Shown: piece by piece, positions 4,092 to 46,080 of the stretch
Layout: each line of letters starts with the position of its first letter
How positions within the stretch are numbered: position 1 is the stretch's first letter
From: an uncultured Verrucomicrobia subdivision 3 bacterium
Lineage (GTDB): Bacteria > Verrucomicrobiota > Verrucomicrobiia > Limisphaerales > UBA11358
Length of the DNA stretch: 46,135 nucleotides
Reading direction: 5' to 3'
Assembly (NCBI GenBank): GCA_903875465.1
Contig: CAIQWB010000065.1
Span: 1 to 46,135, forward strand
Program-made: the position numbers and the translations under genes
Notes under the pieces: model-generated
The model's input: the letters and a program-made list of their open reading frames with translations, nothing else
Database searches by the model: none
Told to the model about the DNA's origin: nothing

Positions 4092-4583
4092 TTAATGACC
4101 AAAACTTACTTGCTGCAGCAGCGGATTCGGAGTACCAAAAGTGCCATTCCCGGGATCCAGGGACATCACCGGATTGGTGCTGGAATCCAGGCTGGTTTGA
4201 TTCGCCGCCGCATTCAGAAAAGCGGGGGAAATGCCCTGGATGGCGGAACCGCTTTGCGAAACTTGCGACGGCACCAGGGATTCCTGACTAGGATCGGGAT
4301 TATCGGTATAAACTATGCCGGCCACGATTAACAGGCACACCGCAGAGGCAAACACGCCCGTGAAGGCAGGCTTGGATTGGAACGCCTGGATGATGGAAAG
4401 CACCCAAGGCGCTTCGACGAACAAACGTTCCAAAGCAGTTTCGGGTTTGCCGCTCTCCCCCTGACGGATGCGGGAAACCACGTTATCTGAGAAACTGTTA
4501 AAAAAGCCGGGCGGGGGAACCTCATGCTTTTTCAAGGCCAGCAGCCGGCGCAACGTTTCAAAATCAGGTTCGGTTTCGTTCAT
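4092..4583 (-). CDS. Single-pass membrane protein, candidate anti-sigma factor
   Basis: A 163-residue protein of no family I recognise. The N-terminal 65 residues are charged and cytoplasmic-looking, then a hydrophobic span (about residues 71-90, FTGVFASAVCLLIVAGIVY), then a Ser/Asn/Pro-rich outer part. The start ATG at 4583 is one base after the stop of the ECF sigma gene (TAA-C-ATG), the classic position for an anti-sigma factor. The zinc motif HxxxCxxC of ZAS-type anti-sigmas is absent. The role as a membrane anti-sigma is therefore an inference from position, topology and size, not from homology. Confidence 0.6.
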   Translation of the reverse strand: MNETEPDFETLRRLLALKKHEVPPPGFFNSFSDNVVSRIRQGESGKPETALERLFVEAPWVLSIIQAFQSKPAFTGVFASAVCLLIVAGIVYTDNPDPSQESLVPSQVSQSGSAIQGISPAFLNAAANQTSLDSSTNPVMSLDPGNGTFGTPNPLLQQVSFGH

Positions 4584-4584
4584 G

Positions 4585-5208
4585 TTACTTCAAATAATCC
4601 GCAAGTTCCGACTGCAATTGTTGCCGTGCGTAAAACAACCGTGAACGCACAGTCCCAATGTTACAATCCATTACTTTTGCAATTTCTTCATGTGACTGAC
4701 CCTGCACATCATGCAATACCACCACTAATCTATGGGGTTCAGACAGCTTCAAAAGGGCCGCGTTCAATTTTTCCTGCAATTCATTCAAACCGGCATCGCG
4801 GCGCGGCGTCTTATGCGAAATCAACGCCATCAGGTCCGGGTCATGCTCGGCGTTGAAATCCAGATCATTCAGGCTCATATGCGCCCGGTTTTTCCGTTGC
4901 TTGAGAAAATTGATCGTTTTGTTGACCGCGATCCGATACAGCCAGGTGTAAAAACTGGAACCGCCTTTGAAGGAGGAGAGCGCCTGATAGGCCTTGATAA
5001 AGGCATCCTGGGCCAGATCATTGGCATCCTCATGATTGGAAGTCATATGATAGATCGTGGCGTAAATGCGCTCCTGATAGCGCTTTACCAAAGCATCATA
5101 AGACTTGAGATCGCCCCGCCGGGCCCGGTGGACCAAGACGTCTTCCGGCACTTCCGCTGCAGCGGAATTGGCGTCGGATGGCTGGGGGGAATCAGGCATA
5201 TGCAGCAT
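4585..5208 (-). CDS. ECF (sigma-E type) RNA polymerase sigma factor
   Basis: A 207-residue group IV sigma factor with region 2 (about residues 25-100: YQERIYATIYHMTSNHEDAN, then DLAQDAFIKAYQAL, then FYTWLYRIAVNKTINFLKQ) and region 4 (about 150-205: LSEPHRLVVVLHDVQGQSHE, then EIAKVMDCNIGTVRSRLFYA). The start ATG at 5208 overlaps the stop of the polyprenyl synthase gene (TAATG); Met4 is an alternative start. Region 1 and region 3 are absent, as expected. The gene is coupled downstream to a membrane protein that may hold it inactive. ECF factors usually autoregulate, but I see no convincing promoter motif. Confidence 0.93.
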   Translation of the reverse strand: MLHMPDSPQPSDANSAAAEVPEDVLVHRARRGDLKSYDALVKRYQERIYATIYHMTSNHEDANDLAQDAFIKAYQALSSFKGGSSFYTWLYRIAVNKTINFLKQRKNRAHMSLNDLDFNAEHDPDLMALISHKTPRRDAGLNELQEKLNAALLKLSEPHRLVVVLHDVQGQSHEEIAKVMDCNIGTVRSRLFYARQQLQSELADYLK

Positions 5209-6254
5209 TAAACCACCAACAAACTGGTTTGTTGCGCTAAAAAGTTCGTCAACCCCAGCAAACCGGCGCGACCGGAGGATTCGGGCAGGTCCTGCAAAAT
5301 CGTGCGGGACTCTTCCAAATACTTGAAGATAATCTCCAGAGAGGGTTGAAAGGTCGCGTATTTGACCAGCAAACGGTTGACCTCACTAAAATGCGCCGGT
5401 TGCCAGTGGGCAATCATGTCCTCCAAACGGCTGCGATCTTCCGGGTTGGCGCGTTCCCACGCCAGCAGAAGCGGCCAGGTCAGCTTGCCCTTTTCCAAAT
5501 CTGTGCCCAGCGACTTGCCGGCCTGGGCTTCCGTGCCAAAAAGATCCACACAATCATCATACACCTGATAGGCCGTGCCAAAGGCCGCGCCGAACTGGCC
5601 CAAGGCGCGGCGTTGCCCGGGTGTGGCCCCGCTCAGAAACGCCGCCAGATCACACGATAGGGTAAACAACTCACCGGTTTTCATGCCGATCACGCGGAAA
5701 TAATCATCGCGTGAGACTTGAAACTTCCGGCGGCTCTGGGTTTGCAAAATTTCCCCCGCGCAAACCGTGTTCGTGGCCGTGGCCACCGCCCGGCAGACTT
5801 CCGGGGTGGGAAAACCCGCCGCCAGTTCCAAGGCCCGGGCGAACAGGCAGTCGCCAAATAAAACCGCAATCTCATTGCCCCAATGGGAGGCCAGGGTCAA
5901 TTGTCCCCGGCGAATTTCCGCCTCGTCCATGATGTCATCGTGGACCAGGGTGGCGAGATGAACCATTTCAATGATCACCGCAATCGTGGCGTGATCATCC
6001 TTCACCTCACCCAGAGAAGCCGCCGCCAGCGCCACCAGCGTGGGCCGCAAATGTTTGCCGCTGCCATTCAGGGCGTACTGCGCGTAGGGCACGATCTGCG
6101 GGTCAAATTGATTGGCCTGCCGGATCAACCGTTCAGTGACCTTTTCCAGAAAAGGTTCCACCGGTTCCACGATGAGTTTCCAGGAACGGTTCAGATCAGC
6201 TTTGGTGGGCGAGGTCAACGCCTCAGCCCTAACCTTTGTATCGGCAGCCAGCAT
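5208..6254 (-). CDS. Polyprenyl diphosphate synthase (IspB/HepT family)
   Basis: A 348-residue trans-prenyltransferase that extends farnesyl diphosphate with isopentenyl units to make the side chain of menaquinone or ubiquinone. The first aspartate-rich motif is HDDIMDEA (Asp106, Asp107, Asp110) and the second is YDDCVDLFG around residue 230; GKHLRP marks the N-terminal substrate site. The FARM is the short DDxxD form found in long-chain synthases. Chain length cannot be read off. The gene heads an apparent operon with an ECF sigma gene (TAATG overlap), its putative anti-sigma and parA. The terminator of pnp lies just upstream, so the operon promoter should sit in the 60 bases between. Confidence 0.93.
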   Translation of the reverse strand: MLAADTKVRAEALTSPTKADLNRSWKLIVEPVEPFLEKVTERLIRQANQFDPQIVPYAQYALNGSGKHLRPTLVALAAASLGEVKDDHATIAVIIEMVHLATLVHDDIMDEAEIRRGQLTLASHWGNEIAVLFGDCLFARALELAAGFPTPEVCRAVATATNTVCAGEILQTQSRRKFQVSRDDYFRVIGMKTGELFTLSCDLAAFLSGATPGQRRALGQFGAAFGTAYQVYDDCVDLFGTEAQAGKSLGTDLEKGKLTWPLLLAWERANPEDRSRLEDMIAHWQPAHFSEVNRLLVKYATFQPSLEIIFKYLEESRTILQDLPESSGRAGLLGLTNFLAQQTSLLVV

Positions 6255-41660: not shown

Positions 41661-41787
41661 CAGCCCTGCAATCCCGACCAGGTAGTGTCCTAATTTGAAT
41701 TGCAAAAAATGGTGGCCAGCACTTGCTTTGCCGCGCAAAGTAGGCGATAGGTGTGGCATGGAAAATTTAGAATCACCGCGCCCCGGC

Positions 41788-42120
41788 CTAATTCTCGCTG
41801 ATCTTGCGGGTTTCGTGGAACTTGATCGGTGCATAAACCGAGCGGGAAGCCCCGTCAGTGGGACGGGAGTTGATTTTGCACCAGACAGCGAACTCATTAG
41901 CGTCCGCCTCCACTTTGTTCAAGTTGATTCCATGGAGGCTCAACTGGCGAAGCTGCTCCGTCGCACGCTGGAGCCATTCGTGATACGGACTGCGCATGTC
42001 TGGGCAAACCTTTTGAAAAGCAAGGTAGGTGGATTCATCCTTAAACCAAAGCGTGCAGTGGAATTCCATCCGCGAATTGTCCAAGAACAAAACCGCTCCG
42101 CGCAAGTTTAATTTAATCAT
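41788..42120 (-). CDS. Unknown passenger protein of the IS1-family element
   Basis: 110 residues from ATG 42120 (another Met 17 residues later, MEFHCTLWFKDESTYLAFQ, is possible and begins the conserved-looking part). It is soluble and mixed helix/strand; SLHGINLNKVEADANEFAVW looks structured. It is transcribed opposite to, and divergently from, the transposase, whose start lies 90 bases away. No family recognised and no DNA-binding motif obvious. A role as a regulator or accessory of transposition is only a positional guess. Confidence 0.6.
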   Translation of the reverse strand: MIKLNLRGAVLFLDNSRMEFHCTLWFKDESTYLAFQKVCPDMRSPYHEWLQRATEQLRQLSLHGINLNKVEADANEFAVWCKINSRPTDGASRSVYAPIKFHETRKISEN

Positions 42121-42209
42121 CCGTCGGGCTGGACGGCGGGCCATCCTGTGCGACATTGGTCGCACGGGATTTTTTGTTTCAGCAAATCCCAATCGTAAAA
42201 TTACGAAAT

Positions 42210-43037
42210 ATGTCTAACGATCTGGCAAAGGAAAAGAAGATCATGGCCGTTTCGCTGCTGGCCGAAGGGAGCAGCATCCGGGCCATTGAGCGCATTACCG
42301 GTGTCCACCGTGACACCATCATGCGCCTGGGCATCCGCATTGGCGAGGGTTGCGCCAAGATTCACGATGCCAAAATGCGGCACCTGAACTGCAAACAGAT
42401 CCAGGTTGATGAAATCTGGGGGTTCATTGGGGCCAAGCGCAAGAACGCTGCGGCCTCTGGGTGCTATGGGGATGTCTGGACGTGCATCGGTCTTGATGCC
42501 GAGTCAAAGCTGATACCCTGCTACATTGTCGGGAAGCGCGACGGCTATCACGCCGATGCGTTTATGGAGGATTTGGCGGCCCGGGTGACCAATCGCCTGC
42601 AAGTCAGCACCGACGCGCTGGCGGCCTATCCTGATGCCGTCGAGCGGGCCTTTGGGTCGGAGATTGATTACGGACAGGTGGTAAAAACGTATTCTGTCAC
42701 CAACCTCAACAAAGACGCTGCCAGTAGGTATAGCCCGGCAGAAGTGGTGAAGGTGGACAAGACGGTGATTTATGGGCTGCCCGACGTGACCCGCATTACC
42801 ACGTCACACATTGAGAAGCAGAACCATACCCTGCGGATGCACTGCCGCCGGCTGAGCCGGCTCACCAATGCATTCAGCAAAAAGATTGAGAACTTTGAGG
42901 CTGCTGTGTCCCTCAACTTCGCGTATTACAACTTTGTGAAACGGCACGGCACGATCCGCATGACTCCGGCACAGGCTGCCGGGGTGGAAAGCAGTGCATG
43001 GACGGTGGCTGATCTGGTTGAACGGTGTGGCGAATGA
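42210..43037 (+). CDS. IS1-family transposase
   Basis: 275 residues in a single frame. The N-terminal helix-turn-helix (SLLAEGSSIRAIERITGVHR, DTIMRL) is like InsA, and the catalytic domain like InsB: Asp67 in IQVDEIWGFIG, Asp135 in VSTDALAAYPDA and Glu202 in HIEKQNHTLRMHCRRLSRLT make the DDE set, and the end FAYYNFVKRHGTIRMTPAQA is the family's C-terminal signature. Unlike classical IS1 there is no insA/insB frameshift. The start ATG 42210 is chosen because it begins the HTH domain; upstream codons in the open frame look non-coding. The enzyme should cut the 19-bp ends of this element. Confidence 0.92.
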   Translation: MSNDLAKEKKIMAVSLLAEGSSIRAIERITGVHRDTIMRLGIRIGEGCAKIHDAKMRHLNCKQIQVDEIWGFIGAKRKNAAASGCYGDVWTCIGLDAESKLIPCYIVGKRDGYHADAFMEDLAARVTNRLQVSTDALAAYPDAVERAFGSEIDYGQVVKTYSVTNLNKDAASRYSPAEVVKVDKTVIYGLPDVTRITTSHIEKQNHTLRMHCRRLSRLTNAFSKKIENFEAAVSLNFAYYNFVKRHGTIRMTPAQAAGVESSAWTVADLVERCGE

Positions 43038-43059
43038 CGAATACATAGAGCGGTTGCAA

Positions 43060-43347
43060 ATGGTGATCTCCCAGTTGCACAAGTGCGACTCACGGCACCT
43101 TGAATCGGTGCCGGTGCATGAGGCATTTGAGGGGAAAACCATTTGGCGTGGCGTTGTGGAAGTGTTTGAGACCATCAAGCACCCGAAGGCCACGCGCTGC
43201 TATGCCTGGTCCCACCGGGAGGGGCCGGGGGACACCGGGGAAAGGTTCGTGGCGGTGATGGGGTTGCCCCCAGTCGATTCGCCCCAGTCAGCCGTAAAGG
43301 TGGCCATCGCCAGCGAGGTCCGGTCAAAAAAGACTGGACAAAAATGA
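43060..43347 (+). CDS. Unknown passenger protein downstream of the transposase
   Basis: 95 residues from ATG 43060; a GTG at 43027 that overlaps the transposase stop would add 11 residues and would couple the two. The sequence contains SVPVHEAFEGKTIWRGVVEV, then KATRCYAWSHREGPGDTGER and FVAVMGLPPVDSPQSAVKVA, and ends in a basic tail. Repeated aromatic/Arg pattern suggests a small folded protein of unknown role. No family recognised. Start uncertain. Confidence 0.6.
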   Translation: MVISQLHKCDSRHLESVPVHEAFEGKTIWRGVVEVFETIKHPKATRCYAWSHREGPGDTGERFVAVMGLPPVDSPQSAVKVAIASEVRSKKTGQK

Positions 43348-43373
43348 AATGGCGTGCGAGTTTTCTTTGTAAA

Positions 43374-43451
43374 TGGTGGACGTGGCGGGGATTGGACCCG
43401 CATTTCCGAGGTGTAAAGCAACGGCGGTTTAACCGATTAACCTACACGCCC
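43374..43451 (-). tRNA. tRNA-like gene with abnormal anticodon arm, inside the IS1-family element
   Basis: 78 bases read on the minus strand. The 7-bp acceptor stem GGGCGTG/CACGTCC pairs completely (one G-U) and is followed by A and an encoded CCA. The D arm GGTT-AATCGGTTA-AACC has A14, G18-G19 and A21. The T arm GCGGG-TCCAATC-CCCGC pairs fully but has C at position 55. The anticodon arm (24 bases including the variable loop, one more than normal) does not form a proper 5-bp stem: CCG...CGG and one inner G-C pair are broken by a TT/CT mismatch. The loop holds CTTTACAC, compatible with UUA or UAC anticodons depending on register. A degenerate tRNA, or a tRNA mimic, are both possible. Confidence 0.6.
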
Positions 43452-43471
43452 ATAATTGGTAGCTGAGAGTG

Positions 43472-43565
43472 CCTAGCGGTCTGATAAGTCGGGTTGGAAC
43501 CGGCTCGTGATACAAATTCTTGGCTTTGGATGCCAAGTTGGATTGCAGCACTTCGACCCACTAGG
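43472..43565 (-). ncRNA. Structured RNA-like region upstream of the tRNA-like gene
   Basis: Read on the minus strand, CCTAGTGG (43565-43558) pairs with CCGCTAGG (43479-43472; one G-U) and encloses a perfect 6-bp hairpin CTTGGC-ATCCAAA-GCCAAG (43537-43519), whose 7-base loop has the form of an anticodon loop with CCA, and a T-arm-like hairpin GCCGG-TTCCAAC-CCGAC (one mismatch). The parts are in tRNA order but the spacing does not close into a cloverleaf. It could be a decayed tRNA or another RNA. Confidence 0.35.
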
Positions 43566-43574
43566 TCTTGTAAT

Positions 43575-43613
43575 CCCCGGCGTGTTTGCTGCACGACCGG
43601 GGAAAGTCTTTTT
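43575..43613 (+). terminator. Hairpin with T-run inside the element
   Basis: CCCCGG-CGTG...CACG-A-CCGGGG (43575-43602) is followed by AAAGTC and five T on the plus strand. It could end transcripts coming from the transposase side; it lies 3 bases from the stop of the minus-strand gene at 43616. Confidence 0.45.
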
Positions 43614-43615
43614 AA

Positions 43616-44044
43616 TCACAGGAGGACATACCCGGCTGCGGTTTTTGCCACAACCTTCTTCCTCTTGGTCAAATACGCCATCGACCCGGAGATTTTCATG
43701 TAAAACTCTCGCCCGTCTTCTGGCCTCGGCCAGCCTTTGCTGGCGTAAATTTCAACAACGTCTTTCGGCATTAGCGGCTTCCCAGCCTCTCGGATGAGTT
43801 GAAGCACCCGCTCAGTCATTGCCAGAGGGGCACCATTAGCCTCCGGTGGCATTGGGGGCTGTAATTTAGGTTTTGGTGCAATTGCAGGACTGGCACTAGC
43901 TGTGCCACCCTTCAACGTGCTCATAACCGTGATTGCGCTGTCTGCCACTTCAAGGAAGTTCGATATATCCTTCACTGTGTCCGACATCACGTCCGACAAC
44001 TCCTGCAACCGGCGCTTGGCTTCGGCAAAATTGTTAATCTTCAT
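43616..44044 (-). CDS. Passenger protein with N-terminal coiled coil and C-terminal winged helix
   Basis: 142 residues. The first 50 residues form a helical, heptad-like segment (NFAEAKRRLQELSDVMSDTV), a Pro/Ala-rich linker follows (PAIAPKPKLQPPMPP), and residues about 75-142 look like a winged helix-turn-helix: ERVLQLIREAGKPLMPKDVV, EIYASKGW, GSMAYLTKRKKVVAKTAAGY. This pattern (helix, helix, wing ending in GYVL) resembles HARE-type or similar winged helices in shape, but I cannot assign a family. It is a likely DNA-binding regulator carried by the element. Start ATG 44044. Confidence 0.65.
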   Translation of the reverse strand: MKINNFAEAKRRLQELSDVMSDTVKDISNFLEVADSAITVMSTLKGGTASASPAIAPKPKLQPPMPPEANGAPLAMTERVLQLIREAGKPLMPKDVVEIYASKGWPRPEDGREFYMKISGSMAYLTKRKKVVAKTAAGYVLL

Positions 44045-44264
44045 ACAATCAATTCCTAAAGCTAAATTAGCACAGTTCTACATCGGTGCAACTAAAAAGT
44101 GAACTAGTAGCACTGGCAGGGCAAAAGCAATACAGCACACACCTTTAACCTGTAGAACTACAAGATGGATTAAGTGCTACACTTTCGGTATAACCAAATA
44201 AAACAAATGAAAAATGAACCATTAGATTCGTATGAGCTTAAGCAAATCAAAAAGGTGGCCAACA

Positions 44265-44531
44265 TTATACGGGTGGCGGTTGCCGGCCCTTGTCCATCTG
44301 AGCGGCTAGACTTGGATTCTGGTCCTCGATCCCCAAAAGATATTTCTGCTGCTTCTGCTCAACACGAGCCCGAATCGAGGAAAGCACCTCCTTCACGTCG
44401 CGTCCGGAAACCTCGCTAATCAACTCCGCCAAAACCTCATTCAGAACTTGAAGCTGGGCGGATGTGTCAAGATGCTGCCTGGCGTTCAGGGTTGCTATGT
44501 TTACAATCCATTGTTTGTCGGCATCATTCAT
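44265..44531 (-). CDS. Unknown 88-residue passenger protein
   Basis: Mostly helical: WIVNIATLNARQHLDTSAQL, QVLNEVLAELISEVSGRDVK, EVLSSIRARVEQKQQKYLLG. It has no membrane segment or known motif. Its start ATG 44531 lies 76 bases inside the right inverted end of the element, and it is followed on the same strand by the winged-helix gene 220 bases downstream. Function unknown. Confidence 0.6.
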   Translation of the reverse strand: MNDADKQWIVNIATLNARQHLDTSAQLQVLNEVLAELISEVSGRDVKEVLSSIRARVEQKQQKYLLGIEDQNPSLAAQMDKGRQPPPV

Positions 44532-44804
44532 ATCATACAGCGTTCAGGCTACACTGTTTCCAGTGTGCCCACGCCTTTAACCCGTTGGAAAGCCAAAAAA
44601 CCGCGTTTCAAATTAGGACACTACCCCCGACCACGCGCCCTGTCGTGGTGCGAGCAAAAGGAGACAGGCCTGTGCGAGCAAAAGGAGAATAATGATCTGG
44701 CCCGATTGTCAGAACGTTTTTGAGGTGTAATCTCATGGGTTGCTTCAGCGGAGGATAGGGCTCTGCGGGGACGCAACCTGAGCGCCGCCTGAAGCCTGAT
44801 AAAC

Positions 44805-44877: not shown

Positions 44878-46080
44878 GTGCCTCTGACATTCTGTGGCGA
44901 TGAAAAGTTACAACTGATCAAACGTCTCCCTGTTCCACTTATCCGCCATCTTCTGGCCAGCCATCGCCGCGCGGAACTTTCCGCCAGCCAGGCCGCCCAA
45001 GAATTAAGCCTGTCCCGCCCGCGCTTCTACAAACTCTACAGCCAATACCTCCGGGCCTGTGCCCAAGGGCAATCCGAGTCCTGGTCGCCCGGCGTCTCCG
45101 GCGGAGATCATCAACCCGCCTGGCCGGCCGCCGCGAGTGACCTGCTTAAGAAGCTGCTCACGGCCAAACCCCCGGCCTCCTACAGCGCTTGTGCCAGCGA
45201 ACTCCACCGCCGGCTCAATTTTAAAACCGACCGCGCCAGTGTCCGCCGCTGGGCCATCCAAAATCAACTGGCTCCCGACACCCGTTACAAGGTCCCGCCC
45301 AAGCCCGTTAAACGCTGGCAGGTGCGGGATCTGGGCGCCCTCTGGCAGTATGACACCAGTCCCCATGCCTGGCTGCCAGACAATCCCGCCAAACAAGCCC
45401 TCCTCGACCTGCTCGATGACGCCACGCGCTACAATGTTGGGGCGCGGCTTTATCCCGCCGAAACCCTGCTGGCCCATTTGGACTTTCTCCCGCGCGCCTT
45501 TCAAGCCCATGGCTTGCCACTGGCATTGTATGTGGATTATCACTCCTTTTTCTTCACCCACACACCCGATGCCTTCACCCAGCTCGGGGCCGCCTTGCAC
45601 TTCTACGGCATCGCCCTGCGCTATGCGCCAACGCCCCAGGCCAAAGGCAAAATCGAACGCCGCCACGATTACTGGCAAAAACGTCTCCCACCCTTGCTGG
45701 CGGCCGATCACATCTTGGAACTCCAAGGGGCCAACAAACTCCTGGATCAACTCCTCCCGCATGTCAATCAGAACGAAATCCACCGCGCATTGGGCACCAC
45801 CCCGCACACCGCCTGGCAGCAAGCCCTCGCCGACCAACACTCCGTCTTGCGACCAGTCCCGGCTTGCCCGTGGTGGCCTTTTGTCTGGAGCCAGCAAAAC
45901 CTTGTCCGGGTTGGTGACGATGGCAAAGTCCCGGCGGGTGCCCAACGCCTGACCATCGAGGCCCCGCCGCGCACCAAGGTCATCCGCTGCTTGCGCCCGG
46001 ATGGCGACATCTATTTCCTCCGCCATCTTCCCAATCCAAAGGCCAAACCAATCGTTCTCCTCCACTGTCCGGTCTTCTGA
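44878..46080 (+). CDS. IS481-type (rve integrase fold) transposase
   Basis: 400 residues from a GTG at 44878. The N-terminal part has a helix-turn-helix (SASQAAQELSLSRPRFYKLY) and a second DNA-binding region; the catalytic rve domain carries Asp159 in LWQYDTSPHAW, Asp220 in ALYVDYHSFF and Glu260 in KGKIERRHDYWQKRLP, a complete DDE triad. The C-terminal region ends LLHCPVF, 1 base from the right-hand repeats. The frame is intact, so the element may be active. The ATG two bases upstream of the GTG is in another frame. Confidence 0.88.
   Translation: MPLTFCGDEKLQLIKRLPVPLIRHLLASHRRAELSASQAAQELSLSRPRFYKLYSQYLRACAQGQSESWSPGVSGGDHQPAWPAAASDLLKKLLTAKPPASYSACASELHRRLNFKTDRASVRRWAIQNQLAPDTRYKVPPKPVKRWQVRDLGALWQYDTSPHAWLPDNPAKQALLDLLDDATRYNVGARLYPAETLLAHLDFLPRAFQAHGLPLALYVDYHSFFFTHTPDAFTQLGAALHFYGIALRYAPTPQAKGKIERRHDYWQKRLPPLLAADHILELQGANKLLDQLLPHVNQNEIHRALGTTPHTAWQQALADQHSVLRPVPACPWWPFVWSQQNLVRVGDDGKVPAGAQRLTIEAPPRTKVIRCLRPDGDIYFLRHLPNPKAKPIVLLHCPVF

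Follow-up and report, generated by a model that had tools for sequence, protein, structure and literature searches.

The element at positions 41681-44625 of the window, by which we mean the whole 46,135-nucleotide stretch of contig CAIQWB010000065.1 from an uncultured Verrucomicrobia subdivision 3 bacterium (assembly GCA_903875465.1), is a transporter insertion sequence (IS) of the IS1 family: it has a conserved core and ends, 8-bp target duplications and cargo that varies among its relatives. Its most unusual part is a tRNA-like gene (43377-43451, minus strand, with CCA encoded next to it at 43374-43376), which is no ordinary tRNA. Judging from its sequence, this gene may encode an alanine-chargeable tRNA mimic that belongs to an accessory module of the element, a tentative proposal on which we lean slightly to the side of doubt.

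An earlier note on this DNA, made from the sequence alone, had described a cargo-carrying IS1 relative with perfect ends, a perfect duplication, an intact transposase, about 2 kb of other DNA and a tRNA-like sequence, and all of this holds. A repeat search gave 19-bp terminal inverted repeats at 41681-41699 (GGTAGTGTCCTAATTTGAA, plus strand) and 44607-44625 (TTCAAATTAGGACACTACC, minus strand), complementary at 19 of 19 positions, and the unstranded 8-bp duplication just outside them, CCCGACCA at 41673-41680 and again at 44626-44633, has no mismatch; inverted repeats and duplications of 8-9 bp are as expected of the IS1 family. Passenger genes lie within this one set of ends, as in a transporter IS. 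The IS1-type DDE transposase (42210-43037, plus strand) matches Pfam DDE_Tnp_IS1 (PF03400) at 28.8 bits, above the gathering score of 24.1, and NCBIfam IS1 (NF033558) at 59.4 bits, below the cut-off of 100. IS1 elements are usually about 0.7-1.2 kb long and typical members read insA/insB by frameshift; the window transposase is one uninterrupted frame of 275 amino acids (aa), without that arrangement. Within the host assembly (5.3 Mb, 96% complete), an 18-base end pattern (up to two mismatches) occurs at these two sites only, and a distant transposase relative (38% identity) is encoded elsewhere.

The element is no one-off: we could delimit 68 elements that are related to it and bounded by ends of the same type, most of them from Verrucomicrobiota and Acidobacteriota (loci are cited here by L numbers). 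Transposase searches gave a match in 22 of 59 related genomes and in 8 of 387 genomes of the phylum; named species genomes were scanned with an alignment of ten close transposases, the best 80 of 99 relatives, mostly titled Verrucomicrobia or Acidobacteria, being kept, and viral contigs gave 8 relatives. Fifteen elements were delimited by the end motif and 53 more by inverted ends and a duplication of at least 7/8. Among the 88 named-species and viral loci, 28 were left out with no end pair passing this rule, some of them cut by contig ends and some (for example L081, L092 and L100) having both end motifs and no matching duplication. Six of the 20 stretches of the first set (L035, L043 and L046-L049) were also not delimited, seven loci repeating known contigs were dropped (L052, L056, L057, L059, L060, L063 and L074), and the near-copies L076 and L077 were both counted. 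The duplications sit outside the cargo in all 68 elements and are perfect in 62 and 7 of 8 in 6, a duplication of at least 7/8 having been the selection rule for the 53 elements and not for the other 15, of which 13 are perfect.

The elements range from 1,153 to 5,804 bp (median 2,919), and 66 of the 68 are at least 2 kb long. These sizes bear on a rival explanation, in which a second element had brought unrelated DNA into an ordinary IS1. The variation of cargo between elements would suit such an event; however, the prevalence of long elements already contradicts it, as does the repeat search of the window, which found no second pair of such ends closer to the transposase, and we give this explanation next to no credence. 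The earlier note had itself proposed that a nested set of ends, or the lack of a second copy anywhere together with cargo lacking homologues in other elements, would speak against its view; for the element as a whole, the 68 relatives and the cargo ORFs that recur among them leave its view supported. The shortest member, L129 (1,153 bp), consists of little else than an accessory gene and a transposase that is matched from residue 47 and probably broken.

Between the conserved ends, the core comprises the IS1-type transposase and a neighbouring accessory gene, often with a ribbon-helix-helix (RHH) gene. In the window, the accessory gene (43027-43347, plus strand, about 100 aa) probably starts at a GTG at 43027 that overlaps the transposase stop, as judged from alignments. 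Its family was matched by a hidden Markov model (HMM) in 61 of the 68 elements, mostly directly after the transposase, and is present in 16 of the 59 related genomes. The AlphaFold model, a helix-four strands-helix fold, is confident (mean pLDDT 92.3); in the PDB the protein had no sequence match at E<=10 and no fold match at E<=0.001. Family assignments were tried with 42 relatives and rejected: US10 was the best Pfam candidate (5 of 42, best E 0.0023), the others being single matches, and NCBIfam TnpC_regulator was found in 5 of 42 (best E 0.02), none of them convincing. The RHH gene is present in 48 of the 68 elements; in those of the Acidobacteriota type it comes after the accessory gene, and in most of the others it precedes the transposase on the opposite strand.

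The earlier note had counted the accessory gene, as 43060-43347, among four extra open reading frames (ORFs) carried as cargo; it is instead a core gene. All four ORFs exist, 43616-44044 and 44265-44531 as given there, whereas 41788-42120 and 43060-43347 begin at internal start codons of frames whose upstream boundary in the ORF list lies farther out (41788-42192 and 42994-43347). The expected recurrence of these small genes in other elements was borne out for the accessory family but not for the other three, which had no match at E<=1 among the ORFs of other elements. One of the three (41788-42120, minus strand, 110 aa) matches phrog_4753, a family of unknown function, at E 1.1e-11, and had no tblastn match in phage records; another (44265-44531, minus strand, 88 aa) has no convincing family. 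The third (43616-44044, minus strand, 142 aa) lies 5' of the tRNA-like gene and has a long N-terminal helix and a C-terminal winged helix (predicted structure mean pLDDT 81.3; best PDB matches to winged-helix proteins, E about 0.1). With other elements it shares only this layout and its place beside the tRNA-like gene.

Cargo differs between elements that share core and ends. Among 159 cargo ORFs picked, 54 have a relative in another element (phmmer); 94 of the 159 were scanned for families, which gave 20 Pfam families at E<=0.001, led by SocA_Panacea (4), GmrSD_N (3) and PIN (3), and most cargo ORFs were without a named family. Clearly recognizable are the BstA protein of L045 (E 5.6e-116), the GmrSD protein of L122, which has both domains, the DNA methylase of L070 and the PIN proteins of L034 and L040.

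The tRNA-like gene of the window was called both by ARAGORN (43374-43451, minus strand) and by the Rfam tRNA model (47.6 bits, gathering score 29; E 2.3e-8). With default settings, ARAGORN reported a tRNA in 12 of the 68 elements and in none of 340 dinucleotide shuffles. A structure-only search for a 7-bp acceptor stem and a T arm, which is blind to identity elements, found matches in 21 of 68 elements and in 3 of 340 shuffles; 19 of the 21 matches have both G3:U70 and A73, and none of the three shuffle matches does. Adding the covariance models R1 and R3 brought the count to 25 of 68 elements, mainly from Verrucomicrobiota, and two more genes, of a type with a long variable arm, were recognized by eye in L037 and L085. 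Just 5' of the window gene, a structured non-coding block (43452-43602, minus strand) is shared with L033 and L170, its 150 nt having a mean column identity of 76%. The 238-nt tRNA-like block has no homologues in phage or plasmid records.

In a MAFFT alignment of 19 copies, all found by R1 and in part close relatives of one another, pairing is complete (100%) in the acceptor stem and reaches 96.8% of cells in the 5-bp T stem; acceptor pairs 4, 5 and 6 and four of the five T-stem pairs change on both sides. The covariation score was reached by 0 of 500 shuffles, and registers slid by 1-3 columns pair far worse. While its neighbours in the acceptor stem covary, pair 3:70 is GU in 18 of 19 copies and GC in one. 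This pattern of substitution indicates an RNA gene that is under selection for the tRNA acceptor/T-arm shape together with the alanine identity pair. It also bears on whether these genes are simply host tRNA genes captured by chance and now decaying. Single copies do look degenerate, and at 47.6 bits the window copy is the lowest of 42 tRNA matches in its host genome, as decay would predict. However, independent elements have the gene at the same junction, compensatory changes keep the stems, and the shuffles gave none at all, both with ARAGORN and for structure matches having G3:U70 and A73 (0 of 340 each), so that chance capture is largely contradicted and in our judgement very improbable.

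Alanyl-tRNA synthetase ignores the anticodon. The 3:70 pair is where identity lies, G3:U70 being described as an alanine identity element in PMC7609411. Among 31 distinct host tRNA genes (30 of the 42 matched loci), G3:U70 occurs only in the two tRNA-Ala genes, and the window copy carries it with A73, the other tRNA-Ala mark, and has the loop CUUUACA in place of the alanine anticodon NGC. A list of 36 copies, made without the truncated L043 copy and the long-variable-arm copies of L037 and L085, has G3:U70 in 33, A73 in 34 and UACA (TACA in DNA) in the anticodon region in 31 (in the L087 copy TACA lies outside the usual place), in a sample where the R1-found copies were chosen for likeness to G3:U70 copies and only the structure-only search is free of that choice. 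Eight later copies all have G3:U70 and A73, two of them (L240 and L243) apparently repeating L121 and L053.

Retention of the alanine marks and of UACA in the loop would also suit a decoding tRNA, one with alanine identity that recognizes the valine codon GUA or the stops UAA/UAG and thereby recodes or tunes the translation of element or host genes. In line with this idea, the anticodons read by ARAGORN are mostly UUA (stop), UAC or a four-base UUAC. However, the structures as we read them have mismatched anticodon stems, and a normal D arm is absent in about a third of the copies. In RNA-bearing elements, TAA, TAG and TGA are all used to end RHH and accessory genes, which gives no hint that stops are avoided or reassigned. 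We therefore rejected the nonsense-suppressor version of the idea (an alanine tRNA acting on UAA/UAG), which stop-codon use does not support, and we regard a decoding role in general as quite unlikely.

In many elements of the Verrucomicrobiota type, the tRNA-like gene separates cargo from core, and its 3' end abuts that of a core gene. Where an RHH gene is present as well, the two are convergent in every case (17 of 17), the 3' end of the RNA lying 0-29 nt from the RHH stop codon; two of these RHH calls (L042 and L065) are weak. Eight of the 25 tRNA-like-bearing elements have no RHH gene; in two elements where none was found, the window element and L032, the RNA converges with the accessory gene instead. 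RNA and transposase are encoded on different strands in the window, L032, L054 and L061, the RHH-RNA pair of L061 being inverted as a whole.

Such a boundary position would suit an insulator or processing site, at which RNase P and tRNA-maturing nucleases would cut transcripts running toward the core from cargo or host DNA and so shield the core genes from outside transcription. The meeting of 3' ends just described is in its favour. RNase P needs the acceptor and T arms, and these are the best paired, while the D and anticodon arms decay. This explanation, however, leaves the retention of G3:U70 and of UACA unaccounted for, and it fits poorly with the four elements where the RNA is on the strand opposite to the transposase, particularly with L054, where its 3' end faces away. 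We consider it unlikely, if somewhat less so than decoding.

The tRNA-like gene seems to go with the cargo, because the window element and L032 share a core but differ in both cargo and RNA class, and because L170 keeps the RNA. The transposases of the window element and L032 are 92% identical and core and ends align, whereas their cargo gave no alignment at E<=0.01; their tRNA-like genes sit at the same junction and belong to two classes, with and without a D arm. L170 (2828-4406) has perfect ends and a perfect duplication and no transposase that we could find in it, and retains two ORFs, an RHH piece and a tRNA-like gene near-identical to that of the window, with the same upstream block. It is one of several short elements (1.6-1.9 kb) that have intact ends, an absent or partial transposase and the tRNA-like gene, the others being L239 (3377-5312) and L241 (3316-5191).

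A further association is with a coiled-coil/winged-helix protein family, which was matched at E<1e-3 in 10 elements, 7 of which are the HMM seed. All 10 carry the RNA, against 0 of 41 elements without it, and 8 of the 10 genes lie upstream of the RNA on the same strand. The window ORF at 43616-44044 was not matched by the HMM of this family. In the 387 phylum genomes, the family gave 7 matches at E<=0.001; five of them seem unconvincing, which leaves L245 (the L042 element) and L246. L246 (1294-1707, plus strand) is a winged-helix relative (E 1.5e-6) from a distant genome of the phylum, followed by a sequence that looks hairpin-like by eye; neither the model nor the structure search found a tRNA-like gene beside it.

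In the 59 related genomes, nine matches reached at least 70 bits to either covariance model, all in such elements or pieces of them, and the next matches, with ordinary tRNAs among them, scored no higher than about 55 bits. A search of 320 genomes of the order gave 17 matches at E<=1e-10, spread over 15 genomes, and 16 of the 17 are near at least one element mark, counting ends, transposase and accessory or RHH pieces; in L171, L172 and L242 the mark is a single end only, and in L238 an accessory fragment only. L244 is the one of the 17 for which no IS1 mark was found. There, a tRNA-like gene with G3:U70 (4501-4573, minus strand) has a coiled-coil/winged-helix gene just upstream (4718-5482, minus strand; E 4e-4), and the pair is flanked by a DNA cytosine methyltransferase and a Vsr-like ORF, both named by eye. 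The only other match at E<=1e-10 in the 387 phylum genomes is L210 (3659-3733, minus strand), a tRNA-like gene with G3:U70 and A73 that scores 64.6 bits to R1; neither IS1 ends nor a transposase was found there, and the RNA sits between Cas3-like and CasA-like ORFs (by eye) in what looks like a type I-E CRISPR operon.

How these genes might work can be sketched as follows. The element would transpose as a unit, and the RNA would be transcribed and then processed like a tRNA. G3:U70 and A73 suggest that it could be charged with alanine by alanyl-tRNA synthetase, and it would be a poor or non-decoding tRNA because its anticodon arm is mismatched and its D arm often missing. Most likely it would serve an addiction- or defence-type accessory module as an RNA partner or guard, and it may act there together with the neighbouring coiled-coil/winged-helix protein when one is present. 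Elements that carry both the tRNA-like gene and cargo of the defence or toxin-antitoxin type are L045 (BstA), L070 (DNA methylase), L042 (Panacea) and L054 (P63C). A more specific version would make the coiled-coil/winged-helix protein and an alanine-chargeable, decoding-defective tRNA mimic the two parts of one module, an RNA-based toxin-antitoxin system or phage-defence guard that rides on IS1 transporter elements and is also found alone in defence loci (L244, and RNA only in L210). This version is doubtful, though we would not call it as improbable as an insulator.

Several observations weigh against the proposed mimic, besides the way in which the R1-found copies were chosen. The clearest restriction and PIN cargo was found without a tRNA-like gene (GmrSD in L122, L055 and L064; PIN in L034 and L040), as was the Panacea protein of L050, and in L054 the 3' end of the RNA faces away from the transposase. 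We have lowered the weight of both the general proposal and the two-part module on these two grounds. The copies of L117 and of the BstA-carrying L045 lack both G3:U70 and A73, and L082 lacks G3:U70 only. Promoter-like scores upstream of the RNA in the 36 copies (mean 7.19) show no excess over shuffles (7.09). The winged-helix gene was recognized in only 10 of 27 RNA-bearing elements, and the probability for its co-occurrence with the RNA (p = 2.9e-5) ignores the relatedness of the elements. The RNA accompanies many different cargoes and so points to no single toxin as its partner. An Acidobacteriota clade of 18 members has no tRNA-like gene, so the RNA is unnecessary for transposition. Finally, presence of the RNA needs 14 changes on the transposase tree, where shuffling gave a mean of 20.4 and values as low in 3 of 500 cases; two of the 68 rows, shorter than 200 aa (L123 and L131), were omitted from this tree, and its rows for L130 and for L041, whose transposase is frameshifted, are long and unreliable.

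Just beyond the right end of the window element, a 17-bp sequence, GTGCGAGCAAAAGGAGA, is repeated at 44648-44688 with a spacing of 24 bp. A 400-aa ORF (44878-46080) with a weak helix-turn-helix match adjoins this repeat.

These elements share with the IS1 family the IS1-type DDE transposase, terminal inverted repeats and 8-bp duplications, but they are mostly 2-4 kb long, have a single transposase ORF and add an accessory gene and often an RHH gene. L170, with perfect ends and duplication around cargo and no transposase found, resembles mobile insertion cassettes (MIC-type elements), but has IS1-type ends and a tRNA-like gene inside. Insertion sequences are usually thought to carry a transposase only. 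If our interpretation is true, soil and groundwater bacteria would have in this clade a large group of compact carriers, each for an individual accessory gene, in some cases one that acts in defence or addiction. Transporter IS members with passenger genes occur in a number of IS families, according to PMC7986276. As in the transporter IS described there, the ends of a single IS enclose passenger genes; the difference is that here an entire clade has this design, its members sharing a core, differing in cargo and often including a tRNA-like gene. Our literature search, which covered few subscription papers, found no earlier description of IS1 elements that contain a tRNA-like gene. The closest RNA counterparts are the allo-tRNAs, in particular the Edaphobacter C40 allo-tRNA-UAU 'pseudogene', reported by Mukai et al. 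2017 according to section 7 of the review PMC7609411. Like these allo-tRNAs, our copies are odd tRNAs of soil bacteria with destabilised stems, and some of those allo-tRNAs have G3:U70; our copies, however, combine a 7-bp acceptor stem with a 5-bp T stem, in place of the 12-bp branch of allo-tRNAs, divided as 8/4 or 9/3. To the allo-tRNA reports, the present data add the elements with their ends, and the recurrence of the gene at a set place in them. If the proposal is right, the odd and seemingly untranslatable tRNAs of soil metagenomes (PMC7609411, section 7) would gain a home and a testable role, as RNAs that keep the alanine charging mark and have lost the ordinary features of decoding.

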